Program-made: the position numbers and the translations under genes
Assembly (NCBI GenBank): GCA_025363385.1
Contig: JANYEA010000088.1
Span: 1-64,000 of the forward strand
Reading direction: 5' to 3'
Origin: Bacteroidota bacterium
GTDB lineage: Bacteria; Bacteroidota; Bacteroidia; Chitinophagales; Chitinophagaceae
DNA length: 64,000 nucleotides
The notes under the pieces: generated by a model
The model's input: only the letters and a program-made list of their open reading frames with translations
What the model was told of the DNA's origin: nothing
Database searches by the model: none
Shown: piece by piece, positions 59,750-64,000 of the stretch
Numbering within the stretch: position 1 is the first letter of the stretch
Layout: the number at the start of each line of letters is the position of its first letter

Positions 59750-59767
59750 TACTTTTGAGCCCTCAAA
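59750..59767 (+). promoter_or_regulatory. Arginine operon promoter with overlapping palindrome
   Basis: TACTTTTG (59750-59757) is a perfect -7 element. The palindrome TTTGAG-CC-CTCAAA (59754-59767) covers its end and the likely start point, as an operator would. No good -33 TTG is visible. The transcript would begin near 59764 and have a leader of about 230 nt. Confidence 0.5.
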
Positions 59768-59837
59768 GAAAAATCAATTAACATTGAAGCAGTTTTTTAC
59801 ACCTCTTAACCCTTTTCAATTGTCTGCATCTTTACCG

Positions 59838-59894
59838 ATGCTTACATCAAAGGCTGCTTTTAATTGTTTACCGCGACCTCGACGCGGTTTCTGA
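59838..59894 (+). CDS. Arginine operon leader peptide
   Basis: An 18-codon frame MLTSKAAFNCLPRPRRGF ending in TGA, with Arg codons CGA, CGA and CGC at 59874-59885. The same frame is open upstream to a TTG at 59784 (MKQFFTPLNPF...), which would give 36 residues; I favour the ATG but cannot exclude the longer form. The Arg cluster just before the stop, the position between a promoter and the N-acyltransferase, argG, argC and argD genes, and a hairpin (CCGCG/CGCGG, 59871-59887) across the Arg codons are what amino-acid attenuation leaders show. It would sense charged arginyl-tRNA. I know no exact precedent for this sequence. Confidence 0.65.
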   Translation: MLTSKAAFNCLPRPRRGF

Positions 59895-59926
59895 TAGGAC
59901 GAGCAACTGGCACTTGCCCCTATCAG
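59891..59926 (+). promoter_or_regulatory. Hairpin over the leader-peptide stop codon
   Basis: CTGATAGG (59891-59898) pairs with CCTATCAG (59919-59926), an 8-bp stem that starts in the last codons of the leader ORF; inside it GCAA (59902-59905) pairs with TTGC (59913-59916). A ribosome stalled at the Arg codons or released at the stop would leave or block this stem. No T run follows, so it may act on translation or on Rho rather than as an intrinsic terminator. Confidence 0.5.
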
Positions 59927-59994
59927 TGGAAAATCCCCAAAAACATACACTACACTATACGTGTTTTCTGTTTACACTTATAACATAAACAAAG

Positions 59995-60711
59995 TTGGAA
60001 ACCAAGGAAATTATTGTCAGGGTAGCCACTCACCTTGATACACATTTTGCACAACGTATTACTGATGAAATGGAATCATCGGCTAAGGCGAGGGGTACAG
60101 GTATTGCTAAAAGATCACCTGAATATGTAGCAGCTAAAATGTTAGATGGCAAAGCCGTTATAGCTGTTACCAGATTAGGACAATGGGTAGGTTTTTGCTA
60201 TATCGAAGCATGGGGCCATGGAAAGTTTGTAGCAAATAGCGGTTTGATTGTTTCTCCTGAATATCGCAAGAGCGGTGTTGCTAAGACTATTAAAAAAAGA
60301 ATCTTTGACCTATCCAGAATCATGTATCCAGATTCTAAAATATTTGGATTAACTACGGGTCTTGCTGTGATGAAAATTAATAGCGACTTAGGTTATGAAC
60401 CCGTAACCTATAGCGAACTAACTGATGATGAAGAGTTCTGGGCAGGCTGTAAAAGTTGCGTAAACTTTGATATCCTGATGAGTAAAGACCGAAAGAACTG
60501 CATGTGCACTGCCATGTTATACGATCCTGCTGATCATTTTAAACCTGAAAAAACTGCAGAGGAATTCAAACAGAATTCAAAACTATATGAACGTTTTATG
60601 AAAATAAAACAAAGTAAACTATTGAATATTTTCAGAAAAAAAGATGGTGGAAACGGCGGTGGAAGTGGCATTAAGCAAAAAACTTTCTTCCACGATCTTT
60701 TTACTTTTTAA
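59995..60711 (+). CDS. GNAT N-acyltransferase, probable first enzyme of arginine synthesis
   Basis: 238 residues starting at a TTG (59995); an in-frame TAA at 59986-59988 rules out an earlier start, and the first ATG comes only at codon 26, inside a conserved-looking part (ESSAKARGTGIAKRS). The GNAT core is SGLIVSPEYRKSGVAKTIKK. A Cys-rich segment (CKSCVNFD, CMCTAML) lies near the C-terminus. In Bacteroidota this family sits in front of argG and argC and is taken to be the N-acetylglutamate (or N-succinylglutamate) synthase; that is family knowledge plus context. A TTTTTACTTTTTAATT repeat covers its last codons and stop. Confidence 0.82.
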   Translation: METKEIIVRVATHLDTHFAQRITDEMESSAKARGTGIAKRSPEYVAAKMLDGKAVIAVTRLGQWVGFCYIEAWGHGKFVANSGLIVSPEYRKSGVAKTIKKRIFDLSRIMYPDSKIFGLTTGLAVMKINSDLGYEPVTYSELTDDEEFWAGCKSCVNFDILMSKDRKNCMCTAMLYDPADHFKPEKTAEEFKQNSKLYERFMKIKQSKLLNIFRKKDGGNGGGSGIKQKTFFHDLFTF

Positions 60712-60762: not shown

Positions 60763-61962
60763 ATGAGTGAGTCAAAGAAAGTTGTATTAGGATTCAGTGG
60801 CGGATTAGACACTACTTATTGCGTTAAATACCTAAGCGAAGACAAGGGCTATGAAGTGCATTCTATTATAGTAAATACCGGTGGATTTACAGAAGAGGAG
60901 CTAAAACAAATTGAACAACATGCCTACAGTTTAGGGGTTAAAACCCACACAACTGTAAATGCAGTGAAATCTTATTATGATAGCATTATCAAGTTTTTGA
61001 TTTTTGGCAATGTTTTAAAAAATAATACCTACCCATTAAGTGTAAGTGCCGAAAGATTAAGCCAGGCCTTACACATCGCAGAACATGCTAAGAAATTAAA
61101 TGCTGATGCTGTTGCCCATGGAAGTACGGGCGCTGGAAACGACCAGGTACGTTTTGACATGATCTTCCATATCATGATACCCGGTGTTGAAATTATAACA
61201 CCCATCCGTGATTTAAAATTGAGTAGAGAAACAGAAATCAGCTACCTCAAAGGAAAGGGTGTAAATATGAATTTCGAAAAATCGATGTACTCTATTAATA
61301 AAGGACTTTGGGGTACAAGTGTAGGTGGTAAAGAAACTTTGAATTCAAAAGGTATTTTACCTGAAGAAGCATGGCCAACTCAGGTTACTGCTACTGAAAG
61401 CAGGGAAGTGAAATTGCATTTCGAAAAAGGTGAACTAACAGGTATCGACAATCAAAATTTTCAACAACCCACTGAAGCAATTCAATATTTACAAACCATT
61501 GCAGGTGCTTATGGTGTTGGTAGAGATATTCATGTAGGGGATACCATCATCGGAATTAAAGGCCGTGTTGGTTTTGAAGCTGCTGCTCCAATGGTAATTC
61601 TTAAAGCACACCATGCTTTAGAAAAACATGTTTTAACCAAATGGCAATTAGGTTGGAAAGACCAGTTAGCACAGTTTTACGGAAACTGGTTACATGAAGG
61701 TCAAATTCTTGATCCCGTAATGCGCGATATTGAAGCCTTTCTTACACATAGTCAGGAAAATGTTACTGGAAATGTATTTGTTCAGCTATTGCCTTATCGT
61801 TTCCACGTTATTGGAATTGAATCGGCTTTTGATTTAATGAATAGCAAATTTGGCAAATACGGTGAAATGAATACCGGATTTACGGGAGATGATGTAAGAG
61901 GATTTAGTAAAATTTTTGGTAATCAAATATCGATCTGGCATAAAGTGAATCAAAGTTCTTAA
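60763..61962 (+). CDS. argG: Argininosuccinate synthase
   Basis: 399 residues, the normal length. The ATP-binding PP-loop is GFSGGLDT (10-17); AHGSTGAGNDQVRFD is the citrulline/aspartate region, and the C-terminal part has the multimerisation segment. It joins citrulline and aspartate to argininosuccinate in the cytosol. Second gene of the arginine operon, 51 bp after the acyltransferase, with the repeat in the gap. Confidence 0.97.
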   Translation: MSESKKVVLGFSGGLDTTYCVKYLSEDKGYEVHSIIVNTGGFTEEELKQIEQHAYSLGVKTHTTVNAVKSYYDSIIKFLIFGNVLKNNTYPLSVSAERLSQALHIAEHAKKLNADAVAHGSTGAGNDQVRFDMIFHIMIPGVEIITPIRDLKLSRETEISYLKGKGVNMNFEKSMYSINKGLWGTSVGGKETLNSKGILPEEAWPTQVTATESREVKLHFEKGELTGIDNQNFQQPTEAIQYLQTIAGAYGVGRDIHVGDTIIGIKGRVGFEAAAPMVILKAHHALEKHVLTKWQLGWKDQLAQFYGNWLHEGQILDPVMRDIEAFLTHSQENVTGNVFVQLLPYRFHVIGIESAFDLMNSKFGKYGEMNTGFTGDDVRGFSKIFGNQISIWHKVNQSS

Positions 61963-61984: not shown

Positions 61985-62995
61985 ATGGCAAACGCGGCAA
62001 ATCCTAATAAAAAGATTCAAGTTGGCATTGTAGGAGGTGCTGGTTATACAGGTGGTGAATTAATACGCATTTTAGTAAATCACCCAAATACTGAAATACG
62101 ATTTGTTCATAGCAAAAGTAATGCTGGCAATCCCCTTTATAAAGTACACAACGACCTGATTGGAGAAACGGATTTGGTTTTTGCGGAACACCTTGAGCAA
62201 GACGTTGACGTTTTGTTTCTATGTGTAGGCCATGGGGATGCCAAGAAATTTTTAGCAGAAAATAGTGTAGCCTCTCATATTAGAATCATTGACCTATCAC
62301 AAGACTTTCGTTTAAATGCAAATAATATTATTTCAGATCGTGCATTTATTTATGGATTACCAGAATTGAATAAAAAAGAAATAAGAGCCGCACAAAATAT
62401 TGCCAATCCCGGTTGTTTTGCTACTGCTATTCAATTGGCATTAATCCCTTTGGCAAAGGCGGGAGTTTTAGACGATGTTTATACAACTGGCATAACCGGA
62501 TCTACTGGGGCTGGACAGAGCTTGAGTAACACTTCACATTTCAGTTGGCGCTCAAATAATATTTCTGCATATAAAACACTTCAACACCAACATCTAAATG
62601 AAATTTGCGAATCGCTTCAGCAGGCTTCAGGGAATCAATTAACCAAGAAAGAATTTATTCACTTTGTACCTTGGAGGGGAGACTTTACAAGAGGCATTTA
62701 CACAAGTAGCGTAACAAAATCATTGCTTGGATTAAATGAGATAAAAAAAATGTATCAGAATTTTTATGCAGATGCTGCTTTTACGCATATGAGTGATGCT
62801 ATGATTGATCTGAAACAAGTGGTGAATACAAATAAATGTCTTATTCATATAGAAAAACAAGGCGATAAAATTGCCATTCACTCAGCAATTGATAACTTAC
62901 TAAAAGGAGCTTCAGGACAGGCAGTACAAAATATGAATCTACTTTTTGGTTTAGATGAAGTTTCAGGGTTACGACTTAAGGCAAACTATTTCTAA
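61985..62995 (+). CDS. argC: N-acetyl-gamma-glutamyl-phosphate reductase
   Basis: 336 residues. NAD(P)-binding GGAGYTGGEL (17-26) and the catalytic Cys144 in NPGCFATA, with HxxxxTRG-like FVPWRGDFTRGI in the C-terminal half. It reduces N-acyl-glutamyl phosphate to the semialdehyde. It lies 22 bp after argG, consistent with an operon. Confidence 0.96.
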   Translation: MANAANPNKKIQVGIVGGAGYTGGELIRILVNHPNTEIRFVHSKSNAGNPLYKVHNDLIGETDLVFAEHLEQDVDVLFLCVGHGDAKKFLAENSVASHIRIIDLSQDFRLNANNIISDRAFIYGLPELNKKEIRAAQNIANPGCFATAIQLALIPLAKAGVLDDVYTTGITGSTGAGQSLSNTSHFSWRSNNISAYKTLQHQHLNEICESLQQASGNQLTKKEFIHFVPWRGDFTRGIYTSSVTKSLLGLNEIKKMYQNFYADAAFTHMSDAMIDLKQVVNTNKCLIHIEKQGDKIAIHSAIDNLLKGASGQAVQNMNLLFGLDEVSGLRLKANYF

Positions 62996-63055
62996 TTAGA
63001 ATTGGTTTGCCCAAACATAAAGATGAAACTGAATTTGAATTTTAAAAAAAATATC

Positions 63056-64000
63056 ATGAAACTTTTCGACGTATACCCTATCAATAACATCACCATCACT
63101 AAAGCCCTTGGTTCTTATGTATGGGATAATTTGGGGCAAGAATATTTAGACCTCTATGGCGGGCATGCAGTAATCTCTATTGGTCATACACATCCACATT
63201 ATGTGAAGCGTTTAACAGATCAATTAAATAAATTGGGCTTTTATTCTAATTCCATTAAAATACCTATTCAGGAAAAGCTTGCTAGTAAATTAGGAGATCT
63301 TAGTGGCAAGGAAGACTACCAACTTTTTCTTTGTAATAGCGGTGCAGAAGCCAATGAAAATGCGTTAAAAGCTGCTTCATTTTATAATGGCCGCAAAAAA
63401 ATTATATCATTTACAAAGGCTTTTCACGGTAGAACATCTTTGGCAGTAGCCGTTACAGACAATCCAAATATTATAGCTCCTGTTAATCAAACAGATCATG
63501 TGGTTTTTCTTCCTTTCAACAATTCCGAAGCTCTTAAAGTTTATTTTGAGGCTAATGGAAATGAAGTGTCTTCCGTTATCATAGAAGGCATACAGGGTGT
63601 AGGTGGTATTAATGTAGCAAGTACCGATTTCCTACAAACGATTCGTAGTCTCTGCAATCAATACAATGCTGTTTTCATCGCAGATAGTGTGCAATGTGGT
63701 TATGGCAGAACCGGGAAATTTTATGCCCACGATCATAGTGGTATTGATGCAGATATTTATTCGATGGCTAAGGGAATGGGTAATGGATTTCCAGTTGCTG
63801 GCATTTCTATCTCTCCCAAAATTCACTCGAAACATTATATGCTTGGTACCACATTTGGTGGTAACCATTTAGCTTGTGCAGCAGCATTAGCAGTATTGGA
63901 AATTATGGAACAAGACGCTTTGATGGCCAATGCAACTAAAATTGGAAATTATATTATGCATGAATTAGCAGTCTTTCCCAATATCAATGAAATTCGCGGA
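63056..64000 (+). CDS. argD: Acetylornithine/succinylornithine aminotransferase (partial)
   Basis: Open from the ATG at 63056 to the window end, 315 codons without a stop; the last 60 or so residues are missing. The start MKLFDVYPINNI is typical; an in-frame ATG at 63023 would add 11 residues. The PLP-binding lysine is Lys239 in SMAKGMGNGFPVAG, and the PLP aspartate is Asp210 in IADSVQCGYGRTGKF (most relatives have DEVQTG). It transaminates N-acyl-glutamate semialdehyde. It continues the operon, 60 bp after argC. Confidence 0.93.
   Translation, partial: MKLFDVYPINNITITKALGSYVWDNLGQEYLDLYGGHAVISIGHTHPHYVKRLTDQLNKLGFYSNSIKIPIQEKLASKLGDLSGKEDYQLFLCNSGAEANENALKAASFYNGRKKIISFTKAFHGRTSLAVAVTDNPNIIAPVNQTDHVVFLPFNNSEALKVYFEANGNEVSSVIIEGIQGVGGINVASTDFLQTIRSLCNQYNAVFIADSVQCGYGRTGKFYAHDHSGIDADIYSMAKGMGNGFPVAGISISPKIHSKHYMLGTTFGGNHLACAAALAVLEIMEQDALMANATKIGNYIMHELAVFPNINEIRG

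Follow-up and report, generated by a model that had tools for sequence, protein, structure and literature searches.

A candidate amino-acid-supply switch, built from an arginine-codon leader peptide and a stop-codon hairpin, upstream of an arginine operon in Chitinophagaceae

How is arginine synthesis controlled in a bacterium in which no ArgR is found? The question is raised by the first 64,000 nt of contig JANYEA010000088.1 (assembly GCA_025363385.1, Chitinophagaceae, Bacteroidota), hereafter the window, near the end of which a short ORF ending in arginine codons lies directly upstream of an arginine operon. ArgR/AhrC is a protein repressor of arginine genes that exerts end-product control, and the sequence-only reading of the window had set this usual repression against what it saw at the operon. 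ArgR (PF01316) was indeed not found in the same genome, nor in any of 195 genomes of the family, in a search that gave matches in 9 of 14 known genomes used as a control. Leader peptides that report amino acid supply are an old kind of regulator, and in attenuators of the his/trp/leu type a short leader ORF, with codons for the pathway product just 5' of its stop, lies upstream of a biosynthetic operon.

The leader frame and its operon

The frame, its stop and three Arg codons (CGA, CGA, CGC) that had been read from the letters are all present in the window, as is the -7 element placed 5' of them (Table 1). The frame ends CCG CGA CCT CGA CGC GGT TTC TGA (Pro-Arg-Pro-Arg-Arg-Gly-Phe-stop), and the leader region folds better than most of its shuffles (z -3.2; 2 of 200 equally good). 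A TAnnTTTG element occurs within 70 nt 5' of the chosen start in 73 of 223 leaders and is absent from 150, compared to 9.7 in mononucleotide shuffles; in this set the automatic choice picked an incorrect ORF at a handful of loci (L008, L058 and L063 among them), and these were kept in the counts. Two starts had been offered, an ATG at 59838 and the TTG at 59784, and the distances between start and stop in the 69 loci that share the hairpin described below support the TTG better: a TTG, GTG or ATG is found 30–38 codons 5' of the stop in 60 loci (34–37 codons in 44), and an ATG 18 codons 5' of the stop, corresponding to 59838, in five, the window among them. The short ORF directly 5' of the operon appears to be translatable, with frame, start and stop kept in relatives.

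Table 1. Features at the 3' end of the window (codon numbers are relative to the leader stop)
Feature	Position	Strand	Details
Bacteroidota -7 promoter element TAnnTTTG (predicted)	59750..59757	+	TACTTTTG; motif match
Leader ORF	59784..59894	+	TTG start, 36 codons, MKQFFTPLNPFQLSASLPMLTSKAAFNCLPRPRRGF-stop; TGA stop at 59892-59894
Candidate regulatory codons Arg-Pro-Arg-Arg (CGA CCT CGA CGC)	59874..59885	+	Codons -6 to -3; Arg codons CGA 59874-59876, CGA 59880-59882, CGC 59883-59885
Stop-codon hairpin	59891..59926	+	CTGATAGG / CCTATCAG; internal loop ACGA opposite C; inner helix GCA / TGC
Conserved GTGRAAA tail, then C-rich stretch	59927..59941	+	Alignments A1 and A2; no pairing partner found
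First operon gene, GNAT-like	59995..60711	+	TTG start; Pfam GNAT below cut-off, E 5e-4; PDB GNAT PA4794, E 8.6e-6
argG, argininosuccinate synthase	60763..61962	+	PF00764, 138.1 bits; TIGR00032, 267.5 bits, just below the 268.2 cut-off
argC, N-acetyl-gamma-glutamyl-phosphate reductase	61985..62995	+	TIGR01850, 293.8 bits, above cut-off
argD, acetylornithine transaminase-like	63002..64000, continues beyond the window	+	TIGR00707, 345.1 bits, below cut-off; PF00202, 328.3 bits

The operon is longer than the four arginine genes first counted: four are in the window, the fourth cut by its edge, but the whole comprises eight arginine genes behind one leader. In the remainder of the contig (L332), argD is followed by argF-like, argB, ArgE/DapE-like and argH genes, of which argB (TIGR00761) and argH (TIGR00838) match above cut-off, and the N-acetylornithine carbamoyltransferase-like gene (NF003384) and the ArgE/DapE-type deacylase (TIGR01910) below it. 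The argD ORF is listed from a TTG, although translation may really begin at an internal ATG. The first gene gave no NCBIfam match at 1e-10, and from its position it probably provides the N-acetylglutamate synthase (argA) function; relatives are present in 155 of the 195 family genomes. By eye, many of the family loci read seem to use TTG or GTG instead of ATG as the start of the first arginine gene.

Conservation of the frame and the hairpin at its stop codon

The upstream DNA of 80 loci with relatives of the first gene was compared with that of the window (81 sequences in total). The same arrangement of leader and hairpin is found in 69, the window counted, and the remaining 12 consist of one truncated contig (L021) and 11 loci that have a leader ending RRPRI and are without this hairpin. 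The last seven codons of the 69 hairpin-type leaders contain two Arg in 25 cases and three in 44, with an Arg-Arg pair in 66, and the last Arg is most often three codons 5' of the stop (52/69). Codon -6 is CGA, AGG or AGA in 55 leaders, codon -5 is mostly Pro (written CCT, CCA, CCC and CCG), and codon -3 encodes Arg as CGT or CGC in 52 leaders, the other 17 having Pro there. A motif search returned 139 matches, of which 58 are the window or loci fetched via the first gene, so that their gene context is not independent; the 139 include 133 distinct argA-side copies, all with two to four Arg among the last eight codons. In 132 of these, TGA occupies a fixed place in the stem, and the exception (L042) has TGG there and stops at the next in-frame TAG. 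All these sequences are related by descent, and the counts are not numbers of independent events.

Over the last seven codons, in 4,000 random pairs drawn from the 133 distinct copies, the synonymous share of codon differences is 0.324 in the leader frame and 0.098 and 0.037 in the other two, i.e., synonymous differences are three to nine times commoner in the leader frame. Synonymous codon variation combined with retained Arg indicates that the frame is read, and that Arg is what is conserved. Loss of the frame or of its Arg codons in relatives had been named beforehand as grounds for giving up the leader; clearly, the opposite is seen, both being conserved with synonymous change.

The leader ORF proposed by the sequence-only reading is upheld, but that reading lacked the most conserved part of the locus, a hairpin around the stop codon, with the TGA inside its 5' arm. 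The consensus has an asymmetric internal loop, (A/C)CGA opposite C, followed by a short inner helix, and alignment A1 (57 of the 69 hairpin loci, near-duplicates dropped) shows almost no variation in the stem or in the asymmetric CGA loop. One pair of the outer helix varies: among 87 distinct hairpins in fetched loci, two viral matches left out, it is U-A in 38, U-G in 22 and C-G in 27; C-A, which the search pattern would also have accepted, is absent. Alignment A2 consists of the window and one locus per distinct hairpin, taken from part of the loci, and its selection pattern fixes helix 1 except for one pair, so that only this pair and helix 2 are free to vary. At the three pairs of the inner helix, both sides change in 6, 3 and 25 cells, and pairing fails in 6, 2 and 2 of 62 cells. 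None of 500 shuffles matched the whole-structure covariation score of 0.226, and sliding the structure by three columns gave more pair types (12 vs. 9) but a lower score (0.112 vs. 0.226). Coding in another frame across the hairpin was ruled out because loop lengths differ by single bases.

A model of the hairpin finds one strong copy in the same genome (E 6e-22) and three weak matches (E 1.4 to 9.5), among which is the strong hairpin read on its opposite strand; the weak extra matches are without the strict motif and were set aside, as were model matches in three other genomes (G021, G020 and G626; E 0.002-0.006) that are without a leader of this kind. Across the family, model R1 detects the hairpin in 58 of 195 genomes, with one copy each except in one genome (G134), and the exact pattern, in a scan that is unbiased with respect to the first gene, is present in 128 of 394 (reversed-pattern control, 0). 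About two thirds of the family genomes are therefore without this hairpin. Gene contexts were read for part of the 128 genomes: of 30 loci from the scan, 29 have an argA-like gene and one (L343) has no listed ORF, 11 more comprise nine argA and two proC contexts, and some further loci were also covered. Two hairpin matches in viral contigs were taken as chance, being without an Arg/Pro-rich leader and without an argA or proC signature 3' of them. Rfam, including T-box and other cis-regulatory RNAs, gave no match at the gathering score in the window or in 20 related loci, and three sub-threshold matches around the site were also regarded as chance.

Codon exchange at proC, the proposed switch and its alternatives

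The second hairpin copy of genome G134 follows MTGYNFHNASFVPCPPPGC-stop and lies 5' of proC (TIGR00112, 225.8 bits, above cut-off). Three other genomes of the genus (G388, G474 and G587) carry the same hairpin 5' of a gene with a proC-like N-terminus; all four also have the arginine copy (read directly in these three, and assigned by position in G134), and among the 20 genomes listed for the genus, 17 of which have a hairpin match, they are the only ones with a second copy. In their last eight codons the four proC leaders have three or four Pro and no Arg, as against the two to four Arg of the argA leaders. Three of the four proC leaders have Pro-Pro at codons -4 and -3, the positions usually taken by Arg-Arg in the arginine copies, and the following Gly-Cys-stop is unchanged (e.g., RRGC-stop in an arginine copy and PPGC-stop in a proC copy). 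Codons for the operon's own product are thus concentrated 5' of the stop in 133/133 argA and 4/4 proC copies, the two remaining of the 139 motif matches being the viral-contig ones, which have neither. With Pro codons at proC and Arg codons at the arginine operon, codon identity tracks what the operon makes, and this exchange is the best evidence that the codons reflect that product and that the hairpin is a reusable part, although the proC copies come from one genus and perhaps one event.

In the proC leaders L333, L366, L367 and L407, the final Cys is preceded by Pro-Pro-Pro-Gly or Pro-Ala-Pro-Gly. Ribosomes are known to pause at polyproline-glycine in an EF-P-dependent manner, so stalling in these leaders may not need uncharged tRNA-Pro.

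We consider, with a probability of about 0.7, that leader peptide and stop-codon hairpin together form an amino-acid-supply switch that starvation turns on. The leader very probably senses the supply of the amino acid that its operon makes, and probably switches the arginine operon on when arginine is short. It would be transcribed from the promoter predicted near 59750 and then translated. When charged tRNA-Arg is ample, the ribosome would reach the UGA and cover the 5' arm of the hairpin, which then could not form next to the polymerase. Under arginine shortage, it would be held up at codons -6, -4 and -3 (CGA/CGC), with its leading edge level with the hairpin base or slightly past it, and the hairpin would fold wholly or mostly, allowing transcription, or intact mRNA, to continue into the eight-gene operon. 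Covering and release in this scheme follow the general geometry of the ribosome footprint. As no terminator was found, our guess for the output, held with low confidence, is Rho-dependent termination or mRNA decay that the hairpin would block. Comparison among relatives establishes the frame, the codons, the hairpin, the fixed place of the stop and the codon-product match; tRNA charging as the signal, the starvation-on polarity and the last step are what we infer. Some points sit uneasily with this scheme. The near-invariance of the stem exceeds the needs of a simple steric switch and leaves room for a bound factor, and, once the -3 codon occupied the A site, the ribosome would open a few base pairs at the bottom of the stem, which makes for an imperfect geometric fit.

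The closest precedent with experimental support appears to be orf34 (SpeFL)-speF of Salmonella. According to excerpts of PMC6386406, pausing at two Arg codons permits a hairpin just 3' of the stop and a ribosome at the stop prevents it, as tested experimentally; the output in that system runs through RNase G decay, through Rho and through access to the start site, and the authors believe that the ribosome acts indirectly, via polymerase speed. The likeness lies in Arg-codon pausing that permits a hairpin by the stop, a logic that our scheme adopts; unlike the present locus, orf34-speF is proteobacterial, controls polyamine synthesis, and involves another peptide and another RNA. In rbfL-rbf of S. 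aureus, rare Arg codons in a leader peptide sense arginine limitation through pausing (excerpts of PMC13009471), but there, unlike in our proposal, a stalled ribosome obstructs the following start site, with reduced expression as the outcome, and the target is a biofilm regulator. As these excerpts describe them, neither leader precedes an arginine-synthesis operon.

An alternative is a textbook attenuator, in which a competing antiterminator and an intrinsic terminator were missed by our scans. It is unlikely, but its odds overlap with those of the proposed switch because the sensing step is common to both. Some relatives have a second small hairpin 5' of a T-rich stretch, and in sister lineages the interval from leader to operon contains several hairpins, which would suit such a device. 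However, intrinsic terminators (a hairpin of -6 kcal/mol or better, then 5 T in 7) lie between leader and first gene in 2 of 77 distinct loci and in none of the other 75, pairing of the 3' side of the hairpin with downstream sequence is no better than in shuffles (mean z 0.17 over 76 loci), and RNAalifold found no shared pair in 19 sister-lineage sequences. Pairing of the hairpin arms with the upstream leader was likewise not seen (mean z 0.05 and 0.30 over 77 loci). A pairing between the 3' flank of the hairpin (AGTGRAAA) and a downstream TTTTCAC is plausible in some relatives and fails over the 76 loci, and the second hairpin was rejected as a conserved terminator, with little or no structure in the Ferruginibacter loci. 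With so few terminators and pairing scores near zero, the locus falls outside the classical his/trp-type definition. The analogy to his, trp and leu leaders, drawn when the frame was first noticed, thus holds for a leader ORF with pathway-product codons before its stop, in a conserved frame and 5' of a biosynthetic operon; it does not extend to a shared intrinsic terminator or competing fold, and it differs further in the stop lying inside a near-invariant hairpin and in arginine as the amino acid. Taken together, the comparisons support the core of the interpretation, a leader that would work like an attenuator while standing outside that definition.

Arrest peptides such as SpeFL and TnaC sense their ligands, and here too the leader peptide in the ribosome tunnel might sense free arginine or ornithine, with codon decoding playing no part. 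Many of the leaders are long (36–44 codons) and, by eye, conservation within clades goes beyond Arg (e.g., HPSLMG...RPVRRPRI and RGVFPV...RPVPVRVRR), as might be expected of a sensing peptide. Between clades, however, the C-termini vary (also by eye) and Arg is their common part, and the proC copy with the same hairpin changes to Pro. Codon choice, which a peptide sensor could not see, also argues against this: CGA makes up 54% of 183 Arg codons in the 69 hairpin-type leaders and 6.6% of 792 across the first genes of the loci compared with the window, and over all leader types, the handful of incorrectly picked ORFs included, CGA and AGA account for 43% and 4% of 747 Arg codons, compared to 13% and 36% of 651 in 39 long ORFs of the window. 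This bias favours decoding over sensing by the peptide alone, though part of it may be kept for RNA reasons, and we regard an arrest peptide as a shade less likely even than the textbook attenuator.

Direct sensing of arginine by the hairpin itself, as an aptamer or a protein site, with an incidental ORF, is improbable. The near-invariant stem and CGA loop of alignment A1 would fit such a site, but an incidental ORF is at odds with the synonymous pattern and the fixed position of the stop, the hairpin also serves proC, where it has Pro codons and another inner loop, Arg leaders occur without it, and it has no Rfam match at the gathering score. Least probable is a DNA operator for some regulator, for although the palindromic arms are near-invariant, the outer pair tolerates U-G and never C-A, the covariation score exceeds that of every shuffle, and the position is locked to the reading frame.

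Arginine leaders and ArgR across the phylum

Arg leaders are not confined to loci with the hairpin. When an Arg leader is defined as an ORF with at least three Arg in its last 12 codons that ends 60–180 nt 5' of the first gene, 83 of 98 family loci have one (mean 4.4 and maximum 7 in 10 dinucleotide shuffles), and outside the family 45 of 78 loci do (mean 6.9, maximum 11), a few genomes being entered twice in this count; by the same rule, 15 family loci and 33 loci of other families have none. Leaders with at least four Arg occur in 31 of the 98 (0.5 in shuffles) and 39 of the 78 (0.9). Smaller excesses are seen for Pro (23 vs. 2.6 in the family, 12 vs. 4.5 in other families), for Val (11 vs. 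3.0) and Asp (4 vs. 0.2) in the family, and for Gly (7 vs. 1.4) and Ala (7 vs. 2.7) in other families. Most of the hairpin-less family loci that were read carry another Arg leader, and the C-termini found in Chitinophagaceae and other families include RRPRI, RPVPVRVRR, SRRRPYMPRA, RRIPRRR, PTRRRP and RRFRRPFRV, among others.

In a survey of 198 genomes of the phylum, ArgR is present in 73 and a relative of the first gene (E 1e-30) in 83, and the two occur together in two genomes only (G222 and G244), both with weak ArgR matches; the same two are the only ArgR genomes among the 96 that have an argG relative at E 1e-60. Because the overlap is nearly absent, ArgR and this type of operon look like alternative states, on a survey that covered leaders outside ArgR genomes. 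ArgR/AhrC would do the same job as the leader proposed here, but it is a protein repressor, and one that is not found in this genome or in the family. If so, the leader would offer an answer to how arginine synthesis is controlled without ArgR in a large part of a major phylum. We also entertain, at somewhat under even odds, a broader reading: a modular attenuator of an undescribed kind, in which one near-invariant stop-codon hairpin stands behind interchangeable codons (Arg or Pro), with no intrinsic terminator and perhaps acting by binding a factor or blocking Rho, and which, along with other Arg leaders, would replace ArgR across much of Bacteroidota. The natural pair of codons (Arg at argA, Pro at proC) makes codon sensing directly testable. 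That the hairpin goes without a terminator suggests an output step beyond textbook attenuation.

Within the phylum, structured 5' leaders of Flavobacterium psychrophilum give strong clues of leader-peptide attenuation before amino acid operons (PMC9723704); the excerpted main text, supplementary tables aside, does not name an arginine operon. Bacteroid-trp (RF01692) is listed as a Bacteroidetes cis-regulatory RNA in an excerpt of PMC2864571, and its name alone suggests an attenuator. In a search of open-licence PMC papers, in part of top-ranked matches only and with most subscription journals beyond its coverage, no paper was seen to describe a leader peptide for arginine in Bacteroidota.

Other arrangements were noticed among the Arg leaders. 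In family loci L235-L283, where leaders end VRR, there are hints of several competing hairpins 3' of the stop (TGATAC..GTATC, CATAGT..ACTATG, then a GC-rich hairpin); a three-hairpin attenuator in this sister lineage is suggestive by eye, but was not retained, as an alignment of 19 sequences gave no consensus fold. In another family (f5), loci L169, L176, L178, L284, L288, L289 and L297 (and the variants L177 and L294) have an Arg leader, ending ..RRP-stop in most, followed by a stem-loop whose stem letters vary around a constant core, UAGGUGAGUCC, that faintly resembles UAGGACGAGC of the window hairpin; six of these loci were scanned against Rfam and gave no match for the stem-loop. Tandem Arg-rich leader ORFs precede the same operon in L177, L178, L288 and L294, and those of L288 end RRRRPMRRR and VRRFFPRP.
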